Shown one piece after another: positions 2,287 through 29,526 of a stretch of DNA of 42,448 nt. Position 1 is the stretch's first letter; every line of letters starts with the position of its first letter. The stretch lies in the NCBI GenBank assembly GCA_022782265.1, contig JALFOM010000030.1, positions 1 through 42,448 on the forward strand, read 5' to 3'. The DNA comes from Clostridiales bacterium. GTDB taxonomy: Bacteria; Bacillota; Clostridia; Oscillospirales; Oscillospiraceae. Below the pieces are notes generated by a model, which saw nothing but the letters and a program-made list of their open reading frames with translations, had not been told where the DNA came from and made no database searches. The position numbers and the translations under genes were made by a program.

Positions 2287-2964
2287 TCACGCGTAAAACA
2301 TGTCCACGTATTCTTCCAGCGTTATGCTCAGCTCATGGATCTGCTCCGCGGCGGAGAGACCCACATAGCGGTAATGCCAGGGCTCATACTCCACGCCGGT
2401 TATCCCGCGCTTTCCCTCCGGGTAACGGAGGATAAAGCCATACTGCCAGCAGTTTTCCATCAGCCACTGCTGGGTAGCGGTGTCCCCCTGCTTCTCGTCA
2501 AGCAGGCTGTATTCCTCATCCACGATGTCCACGGCCAGGCCCAGCTGATGCTCGCTGTATCCGGGCGCCGCCGCGTGGCTTTTGGCGTCGGCCTCCGCCG
2601 TCTCCCGGTCAAGGCCCTGACTCATCAGCTCGCCGACCTTTTCCTCATACACCTCCTCCTGCTGGCTCCAGGCCCGGTAGGAGGAAACGATCAGGGGGCT
2701 GTGCCCCGCCGTCCGGCAGGCGCGCAGCATGTCTTCCAGGTCAGCCGCGCAGCGGGAGTCCACCATCTGTGTCCCTTCGATAATGGTAAACTCCGGGTTC
2801 ACCTCACCGGAGATCTGGTTCCAGGGGTTGACCAGGACAAGGAGCTTGGCCTCGTTTTTCTGCCCCGTCCAGCCTGCGGCCCGGGCGATGAAAAAGCCGG
2901 CTACCAGCAGCACCAGCAGACCCAATATGATATTCACGGCAACAGGTTTCTTCTTCGTCTTCAT
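2287..2964 (-). CDS. VanY-like D-alanyl-D-alanine carboxypeptidase (peptidase M15B)
   Basis: Membrane-anchored zinc D,D-carboxypeptidase that trims the terminal D-Ala of peptidoglycan stem peptides outside the cell. After a short basic start (MKTKKK) comes one hydrophobic segment (VNIILGLLVLLVAGFFIA). The M15B signature is clear: SEHQLGLAVDI supplies the His and Asp zinc ligands, and EPWHYRYVG supplies the catalytic Glu neighbour and third His ligand. Size (about 225 residues) fits the family. I prefer ATG at 2964, which gives a canonical basic-then-hydrophobic N-terminus; a TTG at 2994 preceded by GGGGGG is the alternative and would add ten residues. The gene follows the two-component operon on the same strand and has its own promoter carrying the same 18-nt repeat as that operon, so control by that system is likely (inference). 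Confidence 0.9.
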   Translation of the reverse strand: MKTKKKPVAVNIILGLLVLLVAGFFIARAAGWTGQKNEAKLLVLVNPWNQISGEVNPEFTIIEGTQMVDSRCAADLEDMLRACRTAGHSPLIVSSYRAWSQQEEVYEEKVGELMSQGLDRETAEADAKSHAAAPGYSEHQLGLAVDIVDEEYSLLDEKQGDTATQQWLMENCWQYGFILRYPEGKRGITGVEYEPWHYRYVGLSAAEQIHELSITLEEYVDMFYA

Positions 2965-3027
2965 AGGATAAATGTCAGCCTCATAAAATTCCAATTTCCA
3001 GCCCCCCGATCTTTCCGGTCTGGGGGC

Positions 3028-3080
3028 ATTATATTACGCGCTTGTATACTTTCTGCCAATTCTTTGTATCGTTTTTGTAT
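3028..3080 (-). promoter_or_regulatory. Promoter and response-regulator-type direct repeats upstream of the D,D-carboxypeptidase
   Basis: On the minus strand a TATAAT -10 (3028-3033) is preceded by ATACAAAAACGATACAAA (3063-3080), two ATACAAA half-sites 11 bp apart, with a further ATACAA at 3042-3047, 22 bp beyond the second half-site, so all three fall on an 11-bp register. The identical 18-nt block occurs at 6012-6029. OmpR-family regulators bind direct repeats with about this spacing; binding here is inferred. Confidence 0.7.
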
Positions 3081-3097
3081 CATTGCAAGATTTTTTC

Positions 3098-3889
3098 TCA
3101 GCACGGGTTGATCTGCCAGCCGTTGGTCCAGATAAAGACCGGTATGGTCAGCTCCCGGCTGCCATCGGTATAAAAGTTAATGCTGTAACGATGATTATCG
3201 CCGATGCTTACGCTGTTGTCAAGCTCCGCGACGGTATCGGTAAATTTATACATCTCCGTCAGGTTTTTGGCGATGAGCTGGACTGTGTCGGAGCTGTCTT
3301 CCATATATGACGGTTCTTTTTCCTCATTTGTTCCGTTCTCATCATAGGCGGACTCTTCGTATTCCGTGTATCCGGCGCTGAGGATGATGCCTGTGCTGTC
3401 ATCCACCGCATAGGACAGCTCACGGTATGTGGTTCCGTCCTGCCTTGCGTAATAGATGATCCAAACGATGGCCGTTGTCACATTGGAATCGTCTGAAACG
3501 ATCAGCTGCGGCTCCGCATAGATCAGATCGGCGCTGCCAAGCTGAGTATACGGGAGATCGGTTCCTTCTATGAGCCGCGGTATTTCATATACCATAGCTG
3601 TCGCTTCCGCTTCCGTCATATTCTGCCCGCCGCTGATGGAGACGGAATTATAGTTGTTGTTTTCAGAGAACAGGGAGAACAGGCCCAGCTTTTCCAGCTT
3701 GGCGCTGTCGCTGGTGATGCTGAGCATGGAGCTGCCCAGATCCACGGTCTCTCTGGTGTTGTCCGTCCGGTTGTTCTGGATGCGGGTGAAAAAGCCCGGC
3801 ATATACAGACCCAGGGCCACGGCCGCCGCCATCATCAGAAGCCAGGGCAGGATCTGGGCGGATTTTTTCTTTTTCACAGTCCTTTTCAT
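3098..3889 (-). CDS. Membrane-anchored extracytoplasmic protein, third gene of two-component operon
   Basis: A 263-residue protein with a basic N-terminus (MKRTVKKKK), one membrane segment (ILPWLLMMAAAVALGLYM) and an extracellular domain of about 230 residues rich in Asn, Ser and acidic residues. I recognise no catalytic motif. The end is beta-rich (YSINFYTDGSRELTIPVFIWTNGW). Its ATG overlaps the stop of the upstream histidine kinase (ATGA), so the two are translated together, as accessory proteins of envelope sensor kinases often are (for instance YycH/YycI next to WalK). I infer that it modulates or feeds signal to the kinase; sequence similarity to YycH is not evident. No clear terminator follows; the next promoter begins within about 20 bases. 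Confidence 0.85.
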   Translation of the reverse strand: MKRTVKKKKSAQILPWLLMMAAAVALGLYMPGFFTRIQNNRTDNTRETVDLGSSMLSITSDSAKLEKLGLFSLFSENNNYNSVSISGGQNMTEAEATAMVYEIPRLIEGTDLPYTQLGSADLIYAEPQLIVSDDSNVTTAIVWIIYYARQDGTTYRELSYAVDDSTGIILSAGYTEYEESAYDENGTNEEKEPSYMEDSSDTVQLIAKNLTEMYKFTDTVAELDNSVSIGDNHRYSINFYTDGSRELTIPVFIWTNGWQINPC

Positions 3890-5298
3890 ACCCGGCCTCC
3901 CTTCAGCTCCACGGTGACGCAGGTACCGTTGCCCACACGGCTGGCAAAGCTCATGGTCCCCTTATGCAGTCTGACGATCTCGTTGCACAGGGACAGGCCC
4001 AGGCCCACGCCCCCCTGCGCCCGGGAGCGGGATTTATCCACCCGGTAGAACGCCTCGGTGATGTGGCCGATCTCCTCCTCGGGGATGCCCCGCCCGGTGT
4101 CCAGCACCCGGATACGGCAGCCTTCATCCGTCATCTCCGACATGATATAGATGTTCCCGCCCTTGTCCATGGCCTTGCGGGCGTTATCCAGAATATTCAC
4201 CAGCAGGGATTTGACCAGGTCCGGCTCCAAAAGGCACTCGCCGTCCTCGCAGCGGCACTGGAGCACGATCCCCTTTTCCTCATACACCCGTTTCAGGTGC
4301 TCCACCATGCCGCCCACAATCTGGGCGGGTCTTGCGGGCACCAGCTGGATCTCCTTCTTCTCCAGCACCAGCAGGTCCAGCAGCTTGAAGGACAGGCTTT
4401 CCAGCCGCTTGCCCTCGGAGAAGATGTAGTTTGCCGCGTCCATCTGCTCGCCCTCCGTCAGGGTCTGGGAGCGGATCAGCTCGGCATAGCCGATGATGGA
4501 GGTCATGGGGTTTTTCATCTCGTGGGCAAAGTTGCCCATAAAGGTCTTCTGCCGGTCGGCGGCGTCCTGGATGGTCTTGATATTGTCCTCCAGCTTCTCC
4601 GCCATGGTGTTGAAGTCCTCGGTGAGCTTGCCGATCTCATCCTTGTTGACAACTCTCGCCCGGTAGGACAGGTCGCCGGAGGCGAAGCGCTTGGCGGCAG
4701 CGGAAAGAGCGCTGATGGGCTGGGTCACCCAGTAGGCGATGGCCCAGCACAGCAGACCGCCCGCCACGGCGATCACCGCGAACACCTGCCGGTAGATATG
4801 TACCTGGGCCTGGCTGTCCTCATAGATGCCGCTAATATCGTAGCAGATATCCAGGTACAAGGTCTCATAGGTGGCGGACAGGGCGGCGCTGATGCGCATA
4901 TGCCTTCTCCCCTGCCCGTCCCGGACAACGCTCACCAGCCCCTGGCCCTCAGAGGTCTGGTGCTGCACATCCAGGGAGATGTTACAGCTGTTATCCTCAA
5001 AGAGCGTCTCTCCCTCGGACGACAGCTTCAGGGCGGACCAGCCGGCGGAGCTCTGCCCGCTCATCTGGCCCAGCACCTCCGCCAGCTTCACATGCTCCGT
5101 ACCGGGGCTGACCTGATCCACGATCTTCAGCGTGTTCAGAACCATGCGGGTGGCGCGGAGGGCGGATTCGGTCTCCCGGTCAAACGCGCGGGAAAATCCG
5201 AGCGTGACAATAAGGCTGCCGCCTATCCCGAAGGCAAGCGCCAGCAGCCATATCATGCACATGGTTATCCTGAGCCGGAATTTCACCCTCTGCAGCAC
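3886..5298 (-). CDS. Sensor histidine kinase (envelope-type, HAMP)
   Basis: A 470-residue membrane kinase. TM1 is about residues 12-34, an extracellular sensor loop of ~135 residues follows, and TM2 is about 171-190. A HAMP linker (VTQPISALSAAAKRFASGDL) leads to the dimerisation helix with phosphoacceptor His259 in FAHEMKNPMTSIIGYAEL. The ATPase domain has the N box (NILDNARKA), G1 (DTGRGIP), F box (FYRVDKSRSR) and G2 (GGVGLGLSLC), so it looks fully active. Translation starts at GTG 5298, four bases after the regulator's stop, so regulator and kinase are one transcript. The cognate pair plus a membrane accessory protein and a D,D-carboxypeptidase with a shared promoter box point to cell-wall sensing. 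The signal is unknown. Confidence 0.95.
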   Translation of the reverse strand: MLQRVKFRLRITMCMIWLLALAFGIGGSLIVTLGFSRAFDRETESALRATRMVLNTLKIVDQVSPGTEHVKLAEVLGQMSGQSSAGWSALKLSSEGETLFEDNSCNISLDVQHQTSEGQGLVSVVRDGQGRRHMRISAALSATYETLYLDICYDISGIYEDSQAQVHIYRQVFAVIAVAGGLLCWAIAYWVTQPISALSAAAKRFASGDLSYRARVVNKDEIGKLTEDFNTMAEKLEDNIKTIQDAADRQKTFMGNFAHEMKNPMTSIIGYAELIRSQTLTEGEQMDAANYIFSEGKRLESLSFKLLDLLVLEKKEIQLVPARPAQIVGGMVEHLKRVYEEKGIVLQCRCEDGECLLEPDLVKSLLVNILDNARKAMDKGGNIYIMSEMTDEGCRIRVLDTGRGIPEEEIGHITEAFYRVDKSRSRAQGGVGLGLSLCNEIVRLHKGTMSFASRVGNGTCVTVELKGGRV

Positions 5299-5302
5299 CC
5301 TT

Positions 5303-5956
5303 TCAAAGCACCAGCCGGTAGCCCACCCGGTTCACGGTCTGGAGCTTGTCTTCCCAGCCGATCTTCTTGCGCAGGCGTTGGATATGCAGGTCTACTACCC
5401 TGCTGCCCACGGGGTATTCCCCGCCCCAGACCCGCTCGTATATGGTTTCCCGGTAAAGGGCGGCTCCCGGGTTCTGGGCGAAGAGCAGCATCAGGTCCCA
5501 TTCCTTCTTGGTGAGAAGGATGGTCTCCCCGTTTCGCTGAACCTGGAGAGAGCGCATGTCGATGGTCAGCTCCCCCACCGTCAGCAGATCCTCGGTTTTC
5601 TGGTAGCGGCGGAGCACCACCTCCACCCTGGCCAGAAGCTCCATCACCTCAAAGGGCTTGACGATATAGTCCTCCGCGCCCATGCGAAGGCCCTTCACCC
5701 TGTCGTCCACAGAGTTTTTGGCGGTAATGAAGATCACCGGCGTGCCGGTAGGCTGTATGTACTCCATCAGTTCAAAGCCACTGACCTCCGGCAGCATCAC
5801 ATCCAGCAGAGCCAGGTCAAAATGCTCCTCTTCCAGAATGTTCGCCGCCGTCGTCCCGTCATAGGCGCAGGTACAGCTGTACCCGGCTTTCGTCAGGCTC
5901 AGCTTTATCAGGTCTGAGATGGGCTTCTCATCTTCCACGATCAGTACACGGATCAA
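5303..5956 (-). CDS. OmpR/PhoB-family response regulator
   Basis: Receiver domain (residues 1-118) with acidic pocket VEDE, phosphoacceptor Asp52 in LLDVMLPEVSG, Thr in FITAKN and Lys in VKPF, then a winged-helix DNA-binding domain ending RVVDLHIQRLRKKIGWEDKLQTVNRVGYRLV, the OmpR-type recognition helix and wing. I choose a TTG start at 5956 because a near-perfect Shine-Dalgarno (GGAGGG, 5964-5969) lies 7 bases upstream and the protein then begins IRVLIVEDE, as the family does; the upstream in-frame ATG at 5971 would put the SD inside the coding region. The promoter carries direct repeats that also occur upstream of the neighbouring carboxypeptidase, suggesting autoregulation. Confidence 0.95.
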   Translation of the reverse strand: MIRVLIVEDEKPISDLIKLSLTKAGYSCTCAYDGTTAANILEEEHFDLALLDVMLPEVSGFELMEYIQPTGTPVIFITAKNSVDDRVKGLRMGAEDYIVKPFEVMELLARVEVVLRRYQKTEDLLTVGELTIDMRSLQVQRNGETILLTKKEWDLMLLFAQNPGAALYRETIYERVWGGEYPVGSRVVDLHIQRLRKKIGWEDKLQTVNRVGYRLVL

Positions 5957-5998
5957 GAAACAACCCTCCATTGTATATGACAGTCTCATATCCAATTA

Positions 5999-6029
5999 AT
6001 TATACACCGGATTTGTATCGTTTTTGTAT
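5999..6029 (-). promoter_or_regulatory. Promoter of two-component operon with 11-bp direct repeats
   Basis: TATAAT -10 on the minus strand (5999-6004). Where a -35 would sit there is ATACAAAAACGATACAAA (6012-6029) rather than TTGACA, typical of promoters activated by an OmpR-family regulator. It is identical over 18 nt to 3063-3080. Confidence 0.7.
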
Positions 6030-6086
6030 ACTTTTTGGAAATATGTGTCATAAAAACCGCAAATTTCAGAAAAATTAAGAATTGGA

Positions 6087-6122: not shown

Positions 6123-6686
6123 TTAAAGTGAGAGGATTCCCAGGTGCTCAAGGAGGATTTTCACGCCGATCAGCACAAGGATAATGCCGCCGGCCAGCTC
6201 CGCTTTGGACTTATAGTGGGCGCCGAAGACGTTGCCGATGTAAATGCCCGCAAAGGACAGCAGGAAGGTGGTCACGCCGATCAGGCCCGCAGCGGGGAGA
6301 ATCTGCACCTCCAGAAAGGCGAAGGTGATGCCTACCGCCAGGGCGTCAATGCTGGTGGCAACGGCCATAAGCAGCATGGTTTTTACGCCGAAATCGTCGT
6401 TTAATTCCTCGGCCTTGCCGAAGGACTCCTTGATCATGTTGCCGCCGATGAAGGCCAGCAGCACAAAGGCCACCCAGTGATCCACCGTCTCGATCACCGA
6501 CTCGAAGCGGAAGCCCAGCAGATAACCAATGACGGGCATCAGAAACTGAAAGCCGCCGAAATACAGTCCGGCCAGGGCCGCGTGCTTCACGCCCACCTTT
6601 TTCACGCTCAGTCCCTTGCAAACGGAAACGGCAAAGGCGTCCATGCTCAGCCCCACGGCGATCAGAAACAGCTCGATAAAGCCCAT
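6123..6686 (-). CDS. mntP: MntP-family manganese efflux pump
   Basis: Exports Mn2+ across the cytoplasmic membrane and prevents manganese poisoning. The 187-residue protein has about six hydrophobic helices. It contains the two paralogous half motifs of the family, with conserved Asp in [10 protein letters not shown] (Asp16) and in [10 protein letters not shown], and the GGNMIKES segment. Length matches MntP (about 185-190). Start ATG 6686 has GGAGAG eight bases upstream. It is a single-gene unit with its own strong promoter and terminator; I see no yybP-ykoY Mn riboswitch in the roughly 40-base leader, which is too short to hold one. Confidence 0.93.
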
Positions 6687-9861: not shown

Positions 9862-11175
9862 TTACTTTACCGGCAGAGAGAACTCCGCGGCAAAATGGCT
9901 CTCGTCCCGGCGGGTGGTAAAGCCGCCGTGCATGTGCTCCATGATCTTCTGGCAGGTGCGCAGGCCGATTTTCGTGCTCTCCACCGGGTTTGTCAGCACC
10001 GCGATATTGTTGGACATGCAGAAGCTCAGCTGCCCACCGCTCACCTCACAAATGAACATCACCGGGCGGGACTTGTCCGCGTATTTCCGGGCGTTGGACA
10101 CCAAATTGTCCATAACCCGCTTTAAATACATGGGGTCTGCCTGGACGGTGTACTGCCCCTGAATATCAATGCGGTTCACCGCAAAGCCGGCGTCCAGCAG
10201 GTCAAACTCCGCCTCGCCCATCAGCTGCTCCATCAGTATTCCCGCGTCGTAGTCCTCCAGCTCCATATTGGGCCGGGATGAGCCGAACATGAGGAAATAC
10301 TTGAACAGATCGTCCGTCATGTCCTTGAGCTTCATGGCCTTCTCATAGGACATGGCCGCCAGCTCCTGCTCCCGCTCCGGCAGGGCGCCGCTGTCCCGCA
10401 GCAGCTCCAGATAGCCGATCATGCTGGTCATGGGGGTACGGATATCGTGGGACAGGGCGGTGATCAGCTCCGCATTGGCCTCCCAGGCCTTCTTTTCGCT
10501 GCCCATCCGCTGAATCACCGAGCGGCGCATGTTGTCCATATCCCCGGCAAGCTTGGCGATTTCATCCTCGCCGCCGGCCTCGATGGGCCGTTCCAGATCC
10601 CCCGCGCTGACCTCCGCCGCCTCCCGGGACAGGGAGATGATGCGCATGGTGACACGGCGCACATAGGCAAGCATCACCGCGATAAAGGTGACGCTGGCCA
10701 GGGCCGCCGCCAGCACGTTATTGACCCAGTATTCCCGCACCTCGGAGGAGTCGCTGATAGCGATCTGATAGGTGCCGTCGGCAAAGCGCAGAGGATAGAG
10801 CTTGCCGTACTGGCCGGAATACTGCTCAGCGGAGTTCATGCCCGGCTCCGGTGGCCCGGACTGGCCGCCGCCGGCGCGAAAGGCGCCGTCCTTGCTGCCG
10901 TAGACCAGAATGGTCACATATTCATGCTTCGCCGTCCAGCGGGCGATGGCCGCGCTGTCTCTGCCGGAGACCTGATTTGCGTTGACCCAGGAGCTGAAGG
11001 AGGAATAGATCTCCGCTTTCCGGGCGGAAACCGACTCCTTGCTCATATATAAATGCTCCACCGTGTAGCGCCCCACGCCGCTGACGGTGAAAAAAACCGC
11101 CAGGCCGCAAAGAAACGACAGCAGCAGAGACAGCAGCACCTTGGCGCTGAGGGAGGCTTTGATCTTCTTAATCAA
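9862..11175 (-). CDS. Sensor histidine kinase with atypical ATP-binding motifs
   Basis: A 437-residue membrane kinase: TM1 about 12-33, extracellular region of ~115 residues, TM2 about 152-172, HAMP (ISLSREAAEVSAGDLERPI), then His243 in ALSHDIRTPMTSMIGYLELL, a canonical phosphoacceptor helix. The ATPase domain keeps the N box (NLVSNARKYA), but where G1 (DxGxG) should be it reads CMSNNIAVLTNPVESTKIGLRTCQKIMEHMHGG, with only a short G2-like IGLRTC. Kinases of this type (VanS/BceS-like groups of Firmicutes) are known to use reduced lids. Its start overlaps the end of the regulator gene by 8 bases, so they are coexpressed. The likely target is the divergent solute-binding lipoprotein gene (inference). 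Confidence 0.93.
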   Translation of the reverse strand: MIKKIKASLSAKVLLSLLLSFLCGLAVFFTVSGVGRYTVEHLYMSKESVSARKAEIYSSFSSWVNANQVSGRDSAAIARWTAKHEYVTILVYGSKDGAFRAGGGQSGPPEPGMNSAEQYSGQYGKLYPLRFADGTYQIAISDSSEVREYWVNNVLAAALASVTFIAVMLAYVRRVTMRIISLSREAAEVSAGDLERPIEAGGEDEIAKLAGDMDNMRRSVIQRMGSEKKAWEANAELITALSHDIRTPMTSMIGYLELLRDSGALPEREQELAAMSYEKAMKLKDMTDDLFKYFLMFGSSRPNMELEDYDAGILMEQLMGEAEFDLLDAGFAVNRIDIQGQYTVQADPMYLKRVMDNLVSNARKYADKSRPVMFICEVSGGQLSFCMSNNIAVLTNPVESTKIGLRTCQKIMEHMHGGFTTRRDESHFAAEFSLPVK

Positions 11176-11857
11176 TCTGATAGCCCTTTCCCCACACGGT
11201 GCGGATGATTTTGGGGCTGGAGGGATTGGCTTCGATCTTACGGCGCAGGTTCAGCACATGGACCATGACGGTGTTGCCGGAGCCGGGCAGGAATCTTTCC
11301 TTCCACACCGCCTCATAAAGCTCCTGGGCGGTGACGGTCTTGCCCCGGTTGCGGAGCATATATTCCAGTATGGCATATTCCGTGTCCGTCAGCAGCACGG
11401 GCTTTCCGGCGCTGGTGACGCTGCGGGAGCCAAAATCCACCTCCAGATCCTCGATGGCCAGGGCCGCCTCCGGCTTGCCCTGGTACTCCTTATACCGGCG
11501 GAGCAGGGAGCCCACCTTTGCCAGCAGCTCCTCCTGGGAGAAGGGCTTGGAGAGAAAGTCGTCCCCGCCGCTGCTGTAAGCGGAGATGCGGTCAGCCTGG
11601 GCGGACTTGGCCGTAAGGAAAAGCACGGGAGCGTTGGAAAACCCCCGCAGGGCGTCGCAGGTCTCATAGCCGCTCATGCCGGGCATCATCACGTCCAGGA
11701 TGACCAGGTCTGTGTCCGGGTGGCCCCGGAGATATTCAACAGCGCCGGCGCCGTCCGCCGCCTCGCTCACCTCATAGCGCTCCTGTAGGAGCAGGCGCAG
11801 CACATTGCGGATATCGGTATCGTCGTCAACAATTAAAATGTTCGATTTCTTAGGCAT
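11168..11857 (-). CDS. OmpR-family response regulator
   Basis: A 229-residue regulator. The receiver has DDD at residues 11-13, phosphoacceptor Asp55 in VILDVMMPGMSG, Thr in LFLTAKS and Lys in SKPFSQEELLAKV; the C-terminal winged helix ends NTVMVHVLNLRRKIEANPSSPKIIRTVWGKGYQID, a standard OmpR/VanR DNA-binding domain. Start ATG 11857 has GAGGTG seven bases upstream. It reads divergently from the propeller-SBP lipoprotein gene; the spacer between them holds TTAAGA direct repeats that I propose as its binding site. Confidence 0.95.
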   Translation of the reverse strand: MPKKSNILIVDDDTDIRNVLRLLLQERYEVSEAADGAGAVEYLRGHPDTDLVILDVMMPGMSGYETCDALRGFSNAPVLFLTAKSAQADRISAYSSGGDDFLSKPFSQEELLAKVGSLLRRYKEYQGKPEAALAIEDLEVDFGSRSVTSAGKPVLLTDTEYAILEYMLRNRGKTVTAQELYEAVWKERFLPGSGNTVMVHVLNLRRKIEANPSSPKIIRTVWGKGYQID

Positions 11858-11919: not shown

Positions 11920-11962
11920 TTAAGAAACCTTAAGAGACAGAGGCGTACAGATGTGGTACAAT
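11920..11962 (+). promoter_or_regulatory. Promoter of propeller-SBP lipoprotein with TTAAGA direct repeat
   Basis: TTAAGA at 11920-11925 and 11930-11935 (10-bp period) lies just before a weak -35 (GAGACA, 11934-11939); spacer 17; -10 TACAAT (11957-11962). A poor -35 next to direct repeats fits activation by an OmpR-type regulator. A matching box occurs at 27405-27420. Confidence 0.65.
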
Positions 11963-12049: not shown

Positions 12050-14455
12050 ATGAAGAAAAGCAAAAACATTCTGGCCCTGATTCTGGCAGCGGTCATGCTG
12101 CTGGCGCTCACGGCCTGCGGCAAGGACGGTGAGCAGGGCAGCGCCCCCAGCAATACCCCCACTCCCGAATTTGTCTATACCTCAAGCTACAAGACCCTCT
12201 CCACCGGCACAAACGGGATGAGCGCGCAGCTCTTCACCGAGGACGGCTTCTACTCCGTGGAATCCGAGAAGGTGGGCGAGAAGGAGCATGACCAGCCTGC
12301 CGAATGGGAAGGCCAGTACGACATTTATGAGGAGGCCATCTACTTTGTCGGTTTCGACGGCAGCAGGACCAAGCTTGCAGACTATGAGCCTGTCCGCCCG
12401 GATTCCGACATGGAAGGCCATGATTACGGCAGCTACATCAGCGCCCTCATCCAGGGCCAGGACGGCCAGCTCATCACCCTGGACGACACCTGGGACAACT
12501 GGAACGACGCTCCCGAGGGTGTGGAGATGTACACTGACGAATGGTACAGCTACTCCCAGTATGAGGAGCATTACTATTTCCGCGTGCTGGACGCCACCGG
12601 CAAGGAGCTCTCCCGCAGTGAGCTGAACATAAACACCGCTGACGGCGGCTATTTCTCCCCCTACTCCATGATCGCCGGTGAGGACGGCACTGTGATCTGC
12701 TGCTGCGATCAGGGCATCATCGGCTTTGATCCCGCCACCGGCGAGCAGCTGTTCACCATTGAGATGAGCAACTACCCCGACAAGCTCATCCGCCTGAACG
12801 ACGGCCGGGTGGTGGTCTCCAACTGGGGCGAGAGCGGCAACCAACTCACCGTGGTGGATGTGGCAGCCAAAGCCCTGGGCGAGAACATTCCCTTTGACGG
12901 CGACACCTATAACACCGTCAGCGGCAGCGGCGAATACGACCTGTATTTCACCAGCGGCTCCAACTTCTACGGCTACAAGCTGGAAAATCAGGAAAAGACC
13001 AAGCTCTTCAACTGGATCAGCTGCGATGTGAACAATGACAACCTGTCCGGCTTCACCGTCAATGCCGAGGGTCAGGTTCTTGGTCTGATCAACTCCTGGG
13101 ACAGAAATTACGAAAACTGCACCTGCGAGCTGGTCACTATCTCCAAGCAGCCCTATGACCCCAGCACGGAAAAGACCGTGCTGACCCTGGCCACCCAGTA
13201 CGTCAACTGGAACGACCGGGACACCATCATCAATTTCAACCGCAACAGCGACAAGTACCGCATTGAGGTTCTGGATTACTCCGAGTACAACACCGAGGAC
13301 GACTATGAAGCGGGCCTGACCAAGCTGAAGACCGAGATCATGGCCGGCAACCTGCCCGACATCATCTGTCTCAACGGCCTGGACGGCAGCCTGCTCTCCG
13401 CCAAGGGGCTGATCGTGGACCTGTACCCCTACATGGACGCAGACAGCGAATTCAGCCGCGACGACTTCTTCCCCAACGTGCTGAAGGCCGTGGAGGAAAA
13501 CGGCAAGCTCTACTCCACCGTGGGCAGCTTCTACATCCAGACCGTGGCCGGCGCCAGCTCTGTGGTGGGCACTGAGCCGGGCTGGACCTACGCGGACCTG
13601 GAGGCGGCTCTGGCCACCATGCCCGAGGGCTGCGAGATCTTTGACCACTACACCACCAGGGACGACATTCTCCAGACCAGCCTGATGCTGGACATGGACG
13701 ACTATGTGAACTGGAGTACCGGCGAATGCAATTTTGACTCCCAGCAGTTCATTGACCTGCTGAACTTTGCCAACAAGTTCCCTGGGGAGTTTGACTGGGA
13801 TAATTACGAATGGTCCGAGGAGGATGACTCCTGGAACCGCATTGCCCAGGGCAAGCAGATGCTGATCAGCGCCAACATCTCCGACTTTGACTCCTCCATC
13901 CTCCAGTATCAGTCCCTGTTCGGCGGGGATATCGACGATGTGACCTTCATCGGCTTCCCCACCAATAACGGCGTGGGCAGCATGCTGGGCATTGACTCCG
14001 GCTATGCCATCAGCAAAAACTGCAAGGATCCCGAGGGCGCATGGCAGTTCCTGCGCAGCTTCTTCACCGAGGATTTCCAGGAAGGTCTGTGGAACTTCCC
14101 CAGCAACAGGAAGGCCTTTGACGCTAAGCTCAAGGAAGCCATGACTCCCGTATACATGACCGATGCCGATGGCAACTACATTCTGGACGAGAACGGCAAC
14201 AAGATCGAAGAGAGCCAGGGCGGCTTCGGCTGGGGTGACGGCGCGATGGTGGATATCTACGCCATGACCCAGGAGCAGGCCGACAAGCTGATGGAGCTGA
14301 TCGAGAGCACCGACAAGGTGGCCAATTACGACAGTGCCATCTATGACATTGTCACCGAGCAGGCCGCCGCCTTCTTTGCCGGACAGAAGTCCGCCGAAGA
14401 GGTCGCCAAGCTGGTGCAGAGCAAGGCCAATATCTTCGTCAACGAACAAAGATGA
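12050..14455 (+). CDS. Beta-propeller-like / extracellular solute-binding fusion lipoprotein
   Basis: An 801-residue lipoprotein: signal peptide with lipobox LTACG, anchored outside. Residues about 40-370 are beta-rich and repetitive (DGFYSVES, DGTVICCCDQGIIGFDPATGEQL, DGRVVVSNWG, EYDLYFTSGSNFYGYKLEN), which I read as a beta-propeller. Residues 374-800 form a family-1 type sugar-binding protein: KTVLTLATQYVNW start, LKTEIMAGNLPDIICL, VDLYPYMDAD, and EGAWQFLRSFFTED near the end. A normal SBP is about 430 residues, so this is a fusion. SD GGAGG precedes ATG 12050. Two sugar-type permeases follow after a 420-base gap. A paralogue lies at 27475. It could feed a transporter, sense a ligand for the adjacent kinase, or both. 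Confidence 0.85.
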   Translation: MKKSKNILALILAAVMLLALTACGKDGEQGSAPSNTPTPEFVYTSSYKTLSTGTNGMSAQLFTEDGFYSVESEKVGEKEHDQPAEWEGQYDIYEEAIYFVGFDGSRTKLADYEPVRPDSDMEGHDYGSYISALIQGQDGQLITLDDTWDNWNDAPEGVEMYTDEWYSYSQYEEHYYFRVLDATGKELSRSELNINTADGGYFSPYSMIAGEDGTVICCCDQGIIGFDPATGEQLFTIEMSNYPDKLIRLNDGRVVVSNWGESGNQLTVVDVAAKALGENIPFDGDTYNTVSGSGEYDLYFTSGSNFYGYKLENQEKTKLFNWISCDVNNDNLSGFTVNAEGQVLGLINSWDRNYENCTCELVTISKQPYDPSTEKTVLTLATQYVNWNDRDTIINFNRNSDKYRIEVLDYSEYNTEDDYEAGLTKLKTEIMAGNLPDIICLNGLDGSLLSAKGLIVDLYPYMDADSEFSRDDFFPNVLKAVEENGKLYSTVGSFYIQTVAGASSVVGTEPGWTYADLEAALATMPEGCEIFDHYTTRDDILQTSLMLDMDDYVNWSTGECNFDSQQFIDLLNFANKFPGEFDWDNYEWSEEDDSWNRIAQGKQMLISANISDFDSSILQYQSLFGGDIDDVTFIGFPTNNGVGSMLGIDSGYAISKNCKDPEGAWQFLRSFFTEDFQEGLWNFPSNRKAFDAKLKEAMTPVYMTDADGNYILDENGNKIEESQGGFGWGDGAMVDIYAMTQEQADKLMELIESTDKVANYDSAIYDIVTEQAAAFFAGQKSAEEVAKLVQSKANIFVNEQR

Positions 14456-14875: not shown

Positions 14876-15763
14876 ATGAAAAAAAATTCGCCGAAACTGA
14901 ATGACAGAGGGAAGGATTTTCTCAAAAGCATGTGCTTTCTCTCCCCCAGCCTTCTGGGCGTGGGCATCTTCTTTATCCTGCCCTTCTGCGTGGTGGTCTA
15001 CTACTCCCTGATCGACGGGGTTGGATCGAAGAACTTTGTGTTCCTCCAAAATTTCATAAAGCTGTTCGATAACTCCGCTTTCCGGCTGGCCGCCAAGAAC
15101 ACCCTGACTTTCTCTGCCATGGCCGTGCCTCTGGCAGTCGTTCTGTCCATGGTCCTGGCGCTGATGCTGGAAAGCCGCATTCCGCTGAAATCCCAGTTCC
15201 GCACCTTCTTTTTAAGCCCCATGATGGTCCCTGTGGCCTCCGTGGTGCTGATCTGGCAGGTGCTCTTCAACTACAACGGCACGGTCAACGAGTTTCTCAT
15301 GCTCTTCGGCGCAGACAAGGTCGACTGGCTCCAGTCCCAGTTTGCCCCGGTGGTGGTGCTTCTTCTGTTTTTGTGGAAGAATCTGGGCTACAACATGATT
15401 CTCTTCATGGCCGCCCTGAATAACATCCCCAAGGAGCTGCTGGAGGTGGCCGACGTGGAGGGCGCCAGCGAGATGTATAAATTCTTTGCCATCAAGCTGC
15501 GCTACCTGTCCCCCACGGTGCTGTTTGTCACCATATTGTCCCTGATTAACTCCTTCAAGGTGTTCCGGGAGGTGTATCTGCTGGCCGGGGCCTACCCCTA
15601 CGAGGCGCTGTATACCCTCCAGCACTTCATGAACAACACCTTTGATTCCCTGGACTATCAGAAGCTCTCCGCCGCCGCGGTGCTGATGGCGCTGGTGATG
15701 GTGGTCATCATCGCCCTGCTCTTCAAGGCGGAGGACTGGTTCGGAAAGGACGTGGAGGGATGA
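14876..15763 (+). CDS. Sugar-type ABC transporter permease (UgpA/MalF class)
   Basis: A 295-residue inner-membrane permease with six hydrophobic segments. It has the MalF/UgpA-type coupling loop EAA motif, here LLEVADVEGASEMYKFFAIKLRYLSPTVLF, in which EVADVEGAS-x-G-like residues contact the ATPase, and the family N-terminus SPSLLGVGIFFILPF. It overlaps the next permease gene by 4 bases (ATGA), so the two form a heterodimer from one transcript. The nearest solute-binding gene is the propeller-SBP lipoprotein upstream. No ABC ATPase is in the window; many Firmicutes share one MsmK-type ATPase encoded elsewhere. Substrate unknown, probably a carbohydrate or glycan fragment. Confidence 0.93.
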   Translation: MKKNSPKLNDRGKDFLKSMCFLSPSLLGVGIFFILPFCVVVYYSLIDGVGSKNFVFLQNFIKLFDNSAFRLAAKNTLTFSAMAVPLAVVLSMVLALMLESRIPLKSQFRTFFLSPMMVPVASVVLIWQVLFNYNGTVNEFLMLFGADKVDWLQSQFAPVVVLLLFLWKNLGYNMILFMAALNNIPKELLEVADVEGASEMYKFFAIKLRYLSPTVLFVTILSLINSFKVFREVYLLAGAYPYEALYTLQHFMNNTFDSLDYQKLSAAAVLMALVMVVIIALLFKAEDWFGKDVEG

Positions 15764-16635
15764 AGAAAAAACGCTATTTTGGCCGGGGCGCCATGTTCCT
15801 GCTCTGTGCCTTCTTCGCCGTGGCCTTTCTGCTGCCCACGGTGCTGACCATCACCAACTCCTTCATGTCCGAAAGCGAGATCAACGCAAACTACGGCATG
15901 GTCTTCTCCACCACCACCGGGGGCTACGTCTCCGAAAAGGTGAATCTGAAGTTTATCCCCGACAAGGTAACTTTATCCCAGTACATCACGGGTCTGGTGA
16001 AAAGCCCGGAATACCTGCTGAAATTCTGGAACAGTGTGATTCTGGTGGTGCCCATCGTGATCTTTCAGGTGGCCATCGCCTCCGTGGCGGCCTACAGCTT
16101 CACCCGCTGGCGGGGGAAGCTCCGCAGCGGCATTTTCTTCTTTTATGTGATATTGATGCTCATGCCCTACCAGGTCACCCTGGTGCCAAACTACCTGGTC
16201 AGCGACTGGCTGGGCATTCTGAACACCCGCTGGTCCATCATTTTCCCCGGCATGTTCGCCCCCTTCTCCGTGTTTCTGCTGACCAAGTTCATGCGCCGCA
16301 TCCCCTACTCCCTCATTGAGGCCGCCAAGGTGGACGGCGCCGGAGAGTGGGATATCTTCACCAAAATCTGTCTTCCCCAGTGCCGCTCAGCCCTGTATTC
16401 CATCGCCATTCTGGTGTTTATCGACTACTGGAACATGGTGGAGCAGCCCCTGATCCTTCTGCAGGACGCGGAAAGCCAGCCTTTGTCGGTGTTTCTCTCC
16501 AGCATCAACGCCGGGGAGATCGGTCTGGCCTTCGCCATGGCAACCGTATACATGATCCCCTCACTGCTGCTGTTTCTCCACGGTGAGGAATATCTGGTGG
16601 AGGGCATCGCCAACTCCGGCAGCGTAAAAGGATAA
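15760..16635 (+). CDS. Sugar-type ABC transporter permease (UgpE/MalG class)
   Basis: A 291-residue permease partner with six predicted helices. The EAA loop is clear: SLIEAAKVDGAGEWDIFTKICLPQCRSALYSIAIL. VLMLMPYQVTLVPNYL and the FLLTKFMRRIPYSL segment before the EAA loop are typical of MalG/UgpE proteins. The N-terminal region contains a ~50-residue extracellular loop between helix 1 and 2 with YVSEKVNLKFIPDKVTLSQY, the stretch that normally reads 'T..NY'. It overlaps its partner and ends 68 bases before the HlyD-like gene on the same strand, so all may share a transcript. Confidence 0.93.
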   Translation: MKKKRYFGRGAMFLLCAFFAVAFLLPTVLTITNSFMSESEINANYGMVFSTTTGGYVSEKVNLKFIPDKVTLSQYITGLVKSPEYLLKFWNSVILVVPIVIFQVAIASVAAYSFTRWRGKLRSGIFFFYVILMLMPYQVTLVPNYLVSDWLGILNTRWSIIFPGMFAPFSVFLLTKFMRRIPYSLIEAAKVDGAGEWDIFTKICLPQCRSALYSIAILVFIDYWNMVEQPLILLQDAESQPLSVFLSSINAGEIGLAFAMATVYMIPSLLLFLHGEEYLVEGIANSGSVKG

Positions 16636-27404: not shown

Positions 27405-27449
27405 TTAAGAAATGTTAAGGTGACAGTGGAAAAACGATAAAGGTATAAT
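27405..27449 (+). promoter_or_regulatory. Promoter of second propeller-SBP lipoprotein with TTAAGA/TTAAGG direct repeat
   Basis: TTAAGA (27405-27410) and TTAAGG (27415-27420), 10-bp period, followed by GTGACA (27420-27425) as -35, 18-bp spacer and TATAAT (27444-27449). The arrangement copies that at 11920-11962. Confidence 0.65.
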
Positions 27450-27474: not shown

Positions 27475-29526
27475 ATGAAAAAAGTCCTTTGCCTTCTTAC
27501 GGCCGCCGCACTGCTTCTGACTCTCTGCGCCTGTGGGGCGGAGGAGGCGCCGTCAGAGGCGGAATACTACTGGCGTGCAGAGACGGAAAGCCGTTATCCC
27601 CTGGGCCTCAACGGGGTGATACAGGGCCTTGCCGCCTCGGATGACTGTATCTTTCTCTGCGGAGAAAGCGAGGATGGGCCGCTGCTGGGACGCATCCCCT
27701 ATGAGATCCGGGAGGGCCGTGCCGTGCCGGGTGGGATGGAGGCGGTGGAGCTGCCGGAACTGGCGGAGGGCAGGCGTATGCTGGATCTGGACTTCGGCGC
27801 AGGGAAATTTTATGTACTGATTGTCCTGCCGGAGAGCTATTTGGTTCTGACCTGTCTGCCGGATGGCAGCATAGAGGACAATCTCAGCCCTGTTTTTGTG
27901 GGAGACGAGGAGCCGAAGAGCATCCTGGTGACAGAGGACGGCGGCTTTTGTCTGAGAAGCCTGCACAACATCTGTCTCTATGATTGCACCGGGAAACAGA
28001 CGGCAGCGTTCAGCGACTATCTCTCTGACCTGTACCCTCCCCTGCTGATCGGCGGAGACGTGTTCGCCCAAAGTCTGCCCATGGGTTCCGGCGCTGTCCG
28101 CCTGTGCCGTCTGAACAGGGAGACGGAAAAGCTTGAAGAAATCAGGCGCGAAACGGAGGCAGAGTATCTGCCCCGCTCCCTTTGCCGGAGTGCGCTGGGA
28201 ACGGCGCTGATCAATGAAGGCCGGGAGCTGCTCAGTATCGGCCCGGACGGCCAGACAGAGACGGTGCTGAACTGGGCGGAGCTCACCGGGGAAACCGGGA
28301 CAGAATACCGCTATGTGTGCCAACTTAACGATAATAACTTTCTCATGACGCCCGGGGATTCCGGGGAGCTGATCCTGCTGAACCGTGACTACCGGCCGGA
28401 CGAGCGAAAGACGCTGCGCATCGGCTTTTACGGTCAGGCAAGCGCCATGCTGTCCGTTTTGCAAAACAGCTATGCCCACATCAACGGGGATTATCGGGTG
28501 GAGTGCATCGGCTACGGCAGCGACGAGGCAGGCCTTTCCCGGCTGATGCTGGACGTGGGCGCCGGGGACAAGCTGGATATCGTCGTCAGCGACGGCTGGC
28601 AGGTGGACCCCAGCGGGGGCTTTGCGGACCTGTATCCCCTGATCGACGCCGACCCGGAGCTTTGCCGGGAGGACTTTGTGCCCTGGATGCTGAATAGGCT
28701 GGAGGACGGCGGGCAGCTCAAGCAGATCTGGGGCGGCTTTATTCTCAGTACCATGGAAGCCCGGGGCCCGCTGACAGAGGGGCCGGAGCCCCTGCGTCTG
28801 GCGGACTGCCAGAGCTATCTGGATGGGATCGCTTATGAGGGACCGCTGTTCGGCAGCATACACACCAAGGAGAATTTACTGAATAACATTGCCGTGAATC
28901 TGCTCTCCGCCGCCTATGACGAGGAGACGGGGTGTTACGACCTGCGCACACCGGAGGTCATGGCGCTGCTGGCGCTGTGCAATACCCGGCCTTTAGACTT
29001 TACCTTTGACGAAAACGGCCGGATCATTCAGGATGAGCCGGCGCTGGTCTCCGTGACGGAGCTGCAGCTGGGCAGCCCCGGGGATAAGAAAGAGGAACCG
29101 GCAGCCCCGGTCCGATACTTTGACGGCAGTGACAGCGGGGACAATTTCAGCGCCGTGTTCTGCGACTACCGGGCCTGCTACATGATCCCCAAAACATGCG
29201 CCGACAAGGAAAGCGCCTGGGCCTTCCTCCGGACCATGCTGAAGGAGGACTGGCAGCTGAAAACCTTTACCGAACGCGGCATCGGCTTTCCCTGCAACGC
29301 AGCCGCGCTGGAGAGAGCGCTGGCCGCGTGTATGCAGGACGAGCGGCGGGAAGAGGTCAGCACGATTCTGGATACCGGTGTTTTCCATGATTACGACATG
29401 CAGCAGCTCAGTGCCATTCTCGTGGAAGGTATGCGCCCCTATTTTTACGGGGATTCTTCTCTGGAGAATGCTATTGACAAGACCCAGAGCCGGCTGAACC
29501 TTTACTATGCAGAGCGGCATGGATGA
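27475..29526 (+). CDS. Second propeller-like / solute-binding fusion lipoprotein
   Basis: A 683-residue lipoprotein with lipobox LCACG. Residues 30-305 are repetitive beta-strand sequence (DCIFLCGESEDGPLLGRI, DLDFGAGKFYVLIVL, DGGFCLRSLHNICLYDCTGKQ), as in the gene at 12050. From residue ~311 (KTLRIGFYGQASAML) a solute-binding domain follows, with ADLYPLIDADPELCREDFVPWMLNRLEDGGQL aligning with VDLYPYMDADSEFSRDDFFPNVLKAVEENGKL of the paralogue, and SAWAFLRTMLKEDWQ near the end aligning with GAWQFLRSFFTEDFQ. There is no transporter gene next to it, which favours a sensory or scavenging role over plain uptake. The promoter box shared with the 12050 gene suggests common control. Confidence 0.83.
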   Translation: MKKVLCLLTAAALLLTLCACGAEEAPSEAEYYWRAETESRYPLGLNGVIQGLAASDDCIFLCGESEDGPLLGRIPYEIREGRAVPGGMEAVELPELAEGRRMLDLDFGAGKFYVLIVLPESYLVLTCLPDGSIEDNLSPVFVGDEEPKSILVTEDGGFCLRSLHNICLYDCTGKQTAAFSDYLSDLYPPLLIGGDVFAQSLPMGSGAVRLCRLNRETEKLEEIRRETEAEYLPRSLCRSALGTALINEGRELLSIGPDGQTETVLNWAELTGETGTEYRYVCQLNDNNFLMTPGDSGELILLNRDYRPDERKTLRIGFYGQASAMLSVLQNSYAHINGDYRVECIGYGSDEAGLSRLMLDVGAGDKLDIVVSDGWQVDPSGGFADLYPLIDADPELCREDFVPWMLNRLEDGGQLKQIWGGFILSTMEARGPLTEGPEPLRLADCQSYLDGIAYEGPLFGSIHTKENLLNNIAVNLLSAAYDEETGCYDLRTPEVMALLALCNTRPLDFTFDENGRIIQDEPALVSVTELQLGSPGDKKEEPAAPVRYFDGSDSGDNFSAVFCDYRACYMIPKTCADKESAWAFLRTMLKEDWQLKTFTERGIGFPCNAAALERALAACMQDERREEVSTILDTGVFHDYDMQQLSAILVEGMRPYFYGDSSLENAIDKTQSRLNLYYAERHG

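Follow-up and report, generated by a model that had tools for sequence, protein, structure and literature searches.

The pho box of PhoB in Escherichia coli is an 11 base pair (bp) tandem repeat that stands in place of the -35 element. Other described systems also come close to the one studied here. VanR acts at two promoters, one of them that of its own operon and the other serving peptidoglycan enzymes, VanY possibly among them (PMC8541618), YycH and YycI stimulate the kinase WalK (PMC7355866), and a D-Ala-D-Ala carboxypeptidase is among the WalR-affected genes of Clostridioides difficile (PMC9210968). In Lactobacillus paracasei the CwaRS regulator was active, in cell extract, at the promoter of the operon that encodes it, and the operon includes LdcA, a penicillin-binding-protein-type enzyme re-annotated as an L,D-carboxypeptidase (PMC7062640), while RR_1586 of C. 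difficile binds 11-bp direct repeats of the form DRTTAAGNWWW, a site being proposed in its own promoter (PMC6222199). Here we report on a contig of 42,448 nucleotides, hereafter the window, from a Clostridiales bacterium of the Oscillospiraceae (JALFOM010000030.1 of assembly GCA_022782265.1), in which ATACAA units repeated every 11 bp precede a three-gene operon coding for an OmpR/PhoB-type response regulator, a sensor histidine kinase and a membrane-anchored protein, and again precede a gene for a VanY-type carboxypeptidase. On the sequence evidence given below we consider it highly probable, taking both parts of the statement together, that this uncharacterised regulator acts through the repeats as its operator and that it does so as an activator.

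The element is an exact 18-mer, ATACAAAAACGATACAAA, which occurs on the minus strand at 3063-3080 and at 6012-6029 with no further place in the window at up to 3 mismatches, and none of 100 dinucleotide-preserving shuffles of the window contained a copy. Both positions had been given in a preliminary description of this DNA and are confirmed, as is a further ATACAA at 3042-3047 (minus strand) in the same 11-bp register, so that the units before the vanY-like gene begin at 3080, 3069, 3058 and 3047. The pair of ATACAAA half-sites described at that time stands as an 11-bp repeat and can be refined to ATACAA at 11-bp intervals, with the -10 hexamer 14 bp downstream of the point where the last unit begins. 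Neither promoter had been credited with a good -35 and this holds, the best TTGACA match at spacers of 16-18 being 3/6 in both. The parts of the two promoters are as follows.

6030..6040, minus strand: degenerate third unit TTCCAAAAAGT, upstream in the regulator promoter and in the same register (by eye)
6012..6029, minus strand: direct-repeat element of the regulator-operon promoter, two ATACAA units 11 bp apart (sequence search)
5999..6004, minus strand: TATAAT, the -10 of the regulator promoter, without a -35, at +14 from the start of the last ATACAA
3063..3080, minus strand: direct-repeat element of the vanY-like promoter, units 1 and 2, identical to 6012-6029
3048..3058, minus strand: degenerate unit 3 of the vanY-like promoter, TGGCAGAAAGT
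3042..3047, minus strand: promoter-proximal unit 4 (ATACAA) of the vanY-like promoter, same 11-bp register
3028..3033, minus strand: TATAAT, the -10 of the vanY-like promoter, at +14 from the start of unit 4

At the upstream degenerate unit of the regulator promoter, CCAAAAAGT is also seen by eye in genomes G012, G119, G018 and G124, and the position of unit 3 in the vanY-like promoter is conserved as TGACCGAAACG in several sister species. At the sequence level the putative operator has the direct repeats of about 11 bp that go with the OmpR/PhoB family.

The genus was represented by 102 genomes, with E<=1e-110 as the threshold for a kinase orthologue and the 17-base core ATACAAAAAYGATACAA as the search pattern. 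The kinase was found in 7 genomes and the core in the identical seven (G000, G008, G012, G018, G119, G123 and G124), at 14 core sites, the control pattern having 0 matches in the table; the sister-species kinases are about 65-70% identical. The chance of this coincidence is 5.4e-11 with kinship among the genomes ignored, a value that is too small because the seven may be one clade. Presence of a VanY-type gene cannot explain the co-occurrence, since 92 of the 102 genomes carry one (E<=1e-30). Furthermore, the three-unit pattern occurs without mismatch at 14 places, all in the kinase-bearing genomes, and with one mismatch at 5 places, of which 4 lie in these genomes. At two mismatches there are 33 places (of 52 at up to two), about as many as for the reversed control (29 by column count), and these were treated as background, including four in kinase-bearing genomes (G012:C6, G008:C14, G123:C50 and G124:C11). 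The element precedes the VanY-type gene in all seven genomes, G018 having this gene and the operon on different contigs, and the regulator in six, the regulator promoter of G008 lacking it. Within the genus, the search of related genomes envisaged in the preliminary description found the core confined to the kinase-bearing seven. An assignment of the element to the neighbouring regulator, and not to the envelope at large, is supported at this level. Tandem ATACA repeats in kinase-less genomes (G070:C17, G070:C22, G121:C34 and G083:C17) have no VanY, regulator or lipoprotein gene adjoining them. Three places (G070:C17:112108, G070:C22:139154 and G121:C34:15225) show ATACAG, ATACAA and ATCCAA in tandem at 11-bp steps, the neighbouring genes being, by eye, of phage- or plasmid-like appearance.

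Outside the genus, a scan of 394 genomes of the order for the exact pattern ATACAA-N5-ATACAA-N8-TATAMT gave two matches, one being the window's own regulator promoter and the other lying in G378, a genome of another family, directly before an OmpR-type regulator that is 55% identical to that of the window. At this locus (G378:C37, 1919-5547, minus strand) the exact 17-base core is followed by the regulator, the kinase, the anchored protein and a C39-like peptidase. Five further regulators from beyond the genus, selected for the similarity of their kinases without regard to the motif, are 58-66% identical, and the window's regulator has the recognition-helix segment RxVDLxxQRLRKK in common with those outside the genus. 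In a looser scan for two units plus a -10, the region upstream of the regulator contained the top or sole match of its locus in 4 of the 5 (L035, L036, L037 and L116), the matches in L036 and L037 being weak with a -10 of 4/6. In L037 (G050:C4), four head-to-tail ATACAAC units at 11 bp are seen at the regulator start (6132-6171, minus strand). The same contig has a second ATACAA-like run (3072-3122, minus strand) after the three-gene operon and before a FemAB-family gene (PF02388, 1.3e-40), whose product is, by its family as read from sequence, another peptidoglycan stem-peptide enzyme. It could be asked whether some different cellular regulator binds the element and the neighbouring one is merely a target, given that a first look gave 4 to 39 kinase candidates per genome and that neighbourhood or co-occurrence is no proof of binding. 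We consider this very unlikely, as core and kinase are found in the same 7 of 102 genomes and the sole extra match in the order again lies before a related regulator.

The targets in the seven genomes were collected by pooling the 14 core sites, 18 of the 19 three-unit sites with at most one mismatch and the results of local scans, none of the collecting patterns containing a -10. This gave 25 sites, 6 before the regulator, 7 before the VanY-type gene, 11 before a large lipoprotein gene and 1 (G123:C31) at a contig end. The lipoproteins, of roughly 690-810 amino acids, are targets in G008, G018, G123 and G124, where they are the commonest class, and on sequence grounds this class holds for these four genomes only. 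They were called from signal-peptide-and-Cys starts by eye and from BLAST among them (G123:C18 by resemblance). The preliminary description had the VanY-type gene as a target and had overlooked the large lipoproteins of four sister species. Of six scanned lipoproteins, four pass the Pfam cut-off for SBP_bac_1 or SBP_bac_8; four of the six lie directly behind an element, and two of these pass it. An N-terminal beta-propeller would be our guess from their composition and one sub-threshold PQQ_2 match.

VanY promoters of kinase-less genomes were compared in the 18 of 23 fetched loci that were readable, with provisional start codons. The best unit pair has 2 mismatches in two loci (L133 and L135), 3 in one and at least 4 in 15, but the weakest VanY promoters of kinase-bearing genomes (L129 and L130) also have 2 mismatches, so that the comparison is not a clean one. 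In five loci without the kinase (L133, L134, L135, L136 and L140) a single GGATACAAA lies about 20 bp before the -10 of the VanY promoter, in L133-L136 below a TTAA-rich stretch. It is possibly a relic or belongs to a different control.

The geometry of the 25 promoters is nearly constant. At 24 of them at least 4 of the 6 TATAAT letters are found at +14 from the start of the promoter-proximal unit, whereas elsewhere between offsets 4 and 29 no position has this at more than 3 sites. The one site that departs from the rule (G008:C108) has three units rather than four, with TAATAT at +14 of the third (by eye). A TTGACA match of at least 4/6 at spacers 16-18 occurs at none of the sites, the mean best match being 2.64 versus a background of 2.50. 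Activators that make contact with polymerase typically sit at a fixed distance from the -10. The constant -10 distance together with the missing -35 supports activation, and a tandem operator occupying the -35 region would suit an activator of this sort. A regulator that binds the element as a repressor, blocking polymerase at both promoters until it is signalled, might be proposed for the reasons that the promoter-proximal unit starts only 14 bp from the -10, where bound protein could obstruct polymerase, and that some OmpR-type regulators do repress, RR_1586 of C. difficile having repressed reporters (PMC6222199). We find this unlikely, because promoters without a -35 (25 of 25) would be weak without an activator and because the fixed -10 spacing is activator-like. 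The two copies in the window might further be thought a recent duplication, or members of a repeat family without regulatory role, as there are just two exact ones, 3 kb apart. However, the similarity ends at the element, the flanks and the number of units differ (2-3 versus 4), and sister species retain the element at the two positions as well as having it at unlinked loci before unrelated genes; the conserved position relative to the -10 largely refutes such an origin, which is scarcely credible.

The activating mechanism that we infer builds on the repeats with their register, on the -10 geometry in promoters that have no -35, on the kinase co-occurrence and on the family-level identity of the targets, all of them features that are there in the sequences. 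The response regulator (5303-5995) would have the repeats as its operator. In response to a presumed envelope signal the kinase would phosphorylate the regulator, and the regulator, dependent on this phosphorylation, would bind the ATACAA units head-to-tail at their 11-bp spacing. The promoter-proximal dimer would then cover the place of the absent -35 and recruit RNA polymerase to a -10 at +14 from where the last unit begins. In this manner the regulator would activate, rather than repress, its own operon of regulator, kinase and anchored third protein, and, from the four-unit promoter, the VanY-type carboxypeptidase with its predicted peptidoglycan substrate; the same four-unit promoter would drive the large surface lipoproteins in sister species.

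The window's own genome has 2,283,339 bases in 157 contigs and is 82% complete, and absences are to be read as soft because the genomes are incomplete. The 18-mer at up to 3 mismatches is found at 5 places, of which two are exact and the other three each have 3 mismatches, compared to 4 for the reversed control. A sequence-only model of the target promoter, trained with the VanY site included and the regulator site left out, returned at E<=10 only the two window sites (3.2e-13 and 2.9e-6). The preliminary description had named a scatter of the element over the genome as something that would speak against its proposal, and neither the 18-mer search nor the promoter model revealed such scatter in the window genome.

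Several observations weigh against an activator working through this operator. The seven genomes may be one clade, in which case the co-occurrence is not seven independent events, and the VanY-type genes of the genus are mostly without the element. The regulator promoter of G008 is without it as well, and so is the additional VanY gene that G008, G018, G123 and G124 carry upstream of the regulator. The order-wide pattern with its -10 recovered only the window's own site in 391 genomes of the class, some of which were also in the order draw, and L115, the fifth of the outside regulators, has a weak match that ties with others. Lipoproteins were rejected as targets in the window genome, where five homologues (7 matches) include none with the element. 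Moreover, the loose motif ATACAAA-N4-ATACAAA at up to 2 mismatches is not enriched in that genome (16 places versus 16 control places), so that the evidence rests on the full element, its position and its conservation. For the same reason the additional places of the loose motif were rejected as targets, including the third perfect half-site pair of the genome, ATACAAATTAAATACAAA at C105:6205-6222, which has no recognisable envelope gene near it. The earlier proposal of a regulator that activates its own operon and a peptidoglycan-trimming enzyme is supported in part, by element placement, conservation and geometry, with the G008 regulator promoter speaking against it.

The genes of the operon and the VanY-type gene are arranged as follows.

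5303..5995, minus strand: OmpR/PhoB-type response regulator (Response_reg 5.2e-28, Trans_reg_C 5.4e-21)
3886..5298, minus strand: membrane sensor histidine kinase with HAMP, HisKA and HATPase_c domains (Pfam)
3098..3889, minus strand: third operon gene, 263 amino acids with an N-terminal membrane anchor (open reading frame list)
2287..2994, minus strand: VanY-type (M15) membrane-anchored carboxypeptidase (Pfam VanY, PF02557, 129.6 bits, cut-off 25)

Both regulator domains are above their Pfam cut-offs, the receiver with 97.9 bits (cut-off 30.2) and Trans_reg_C with 74.9 bits (cut-off 26.2), and from the position of the -10 a start at ATG 5971 or TTG 5956 is likelier than the listed TTG 5995. 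Among the best 25 of 106 NCBIfam models, the regulator stays under the curated cut-offs of CseB (192.8 of 350), PhoB (188.7 of 296.2), MtrA (184.6 of 300), YycF (175.8 of 340) and VanR_ACDEGLN (162.1 of 350). The kinase, in which an extracytoplasmic loop between two predicted membrane stretches is seen by eye, likewise stays under those of WalK (168.9 of 725) and VanS (125.5 of 400) among the best 25 of 92. The third gene begins within the end of the kinase gene, the two sharing 4 bp (ATGA) at the kinase stop codon. Its protein has no NCBIfam match and no Pfam family at E<=0.1, hence no YycH/YycI Pfam match. Its structure model contains two units of a helix plus four strands and is best matched by the C-terminal domain of YpeB, a weak and PepSY-like resemblance, with 0 Foldseek matches at E<=0.001; YycH and YycI are absent from the list of structural matches, which does not exclude them. 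Co-occurrence and the weak PepSY-like match may hint that the anchored protein is part of the sensor.

The vanY-like gene has its own promoter, located between the third gene and its TTG start at 2994, and this start is backed by a conserved (E)ADxYP that follows it. The SxHxxGxxxD and PWH motifs of the protein are intact, and S147, H149, D156 and H207 are invariant in 11 of 11 aligned sequences. The best NCBIfam model is vanY_BG with 149.7 of a cut-off of 400, followed by vanXY (106.4) and LdcB (98.4). Against PDB, the VanY profile A4 matches chains named D-alanyl-D-alanine carboxypeptidase best (5hnm, 199.6 bits), compared to 101.9 bits for the LdcB L,D-carboxypeptidase 4ox5, and the enzyme is putatively D,D- rather than L,D-specific.

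Set beside the described systems, the locus resembles each in part. With WalRK (YycFG) and YycH/YycI it shares an OmpR-type pair over peptidoglycan enzymes and co-encoded anchored proteins, but here kinase and regulator are below the WalK and YycF cut-offs and the third protein is without a YycH/YycI Pfam match. The WalR box consensus also differs from the ATACAA operator. In CwaRS an OmpR-type pair is likewise linked to a carboxypeptidase gene, LdcA being within the operon whereas here a separate operator copy precedes the VanY-type gene. RR_1586 is a clostridial OmpR-family regulator with 11-bp direct repeats as well, yet its repeat is not ATACAA and its proposed targets are different. PhoB is similar in domain make-up and is the second-best NCBIfam model, although its cut-off is missed, the half-site is a different one and no phosphate genes are among the targets. 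With VanRS the locus has in common the OmpR-type pair, the own-operon promoter and a second promoter for a peptidoglycan enzyme, and differs in the third anchored protein of the operon, in the lipoprotein targets of sister species and in the missed VanR, VanS and VanY cut-offs. The system could even be a glycopeptide-resistance switch of the VanRS kind, since a VanY-like target lies beside an OmpR-type pair and VanR too acts at two promoters, those of its own operon and of the resistance genes (PMC8541618). In our judgement this is most unlikely, given that a scan of 16 window proteins contained no VanH, VanA or VanX, no search for vanHAX having covered the other contigs, and that the VanR, VanS and VanY models score far below their curated cut-offs. 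By analogy, the operator-bound regulator would work like PhoB- or VanR-type activation, yet the system reaches no curated equivalog cut-off among the best models. A literature search found no description of this operator or operon, which does not prove its absence in print.

The lipoprotein genes of the window itself show another repeat. Exact TTAAGAA-N3-TTAAG copies lie at 11920-11934 and 27405-27419 (plus strand), upstream of the window's two large lipoprotein genes (12050-14455 and 27475-29526), and at up to 2 mismatches the pattern has 7 matches in the window versus 1.3 expected. Another OmpR-type regulator may run these genes, because the TTAAG repeat fits the DRTTAAGNWWW form given for RR_1586 (PMC6222199). 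A second pair of OmpR-type regulator and kinase (9862-11857, minus strand) is oriented divergently to the lipoprotein gene at 12050, and two ATP-binding cassette (ABC) permease genes (14876-15763 and 15760-16635) come after that lipoprotein gene.

On a wider view, which we hold to be speculative and rather doubtful, the operon would represent an undescribed class of three-gene sensor operons (OmpR-type regulator, kinase and PepSY-like anchored protein) in Oscillospirales and Lachnospiraceae that senses the state of the stem peptides. One ATACAA/11-bp promoter code would control stem-peptide enzymes, of VanY type and in G050 of FemAB type, and solute-binding-like lipoproteins that collect or sense released wall fragments. 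For the organism, a regulator of an uncultured gut genus gains a defined putative operator, a promoter architecture and a short list of targets, predicted from genomes alone, and a VanY-type wall enzyme outside van clusters would be tied to a dedicated switch. Furthermore, the role of a large class of surface lipoproteins becomes testable, and the ATACAA/11-bp code could be used to find the targets of related regulators in other Clostridia.

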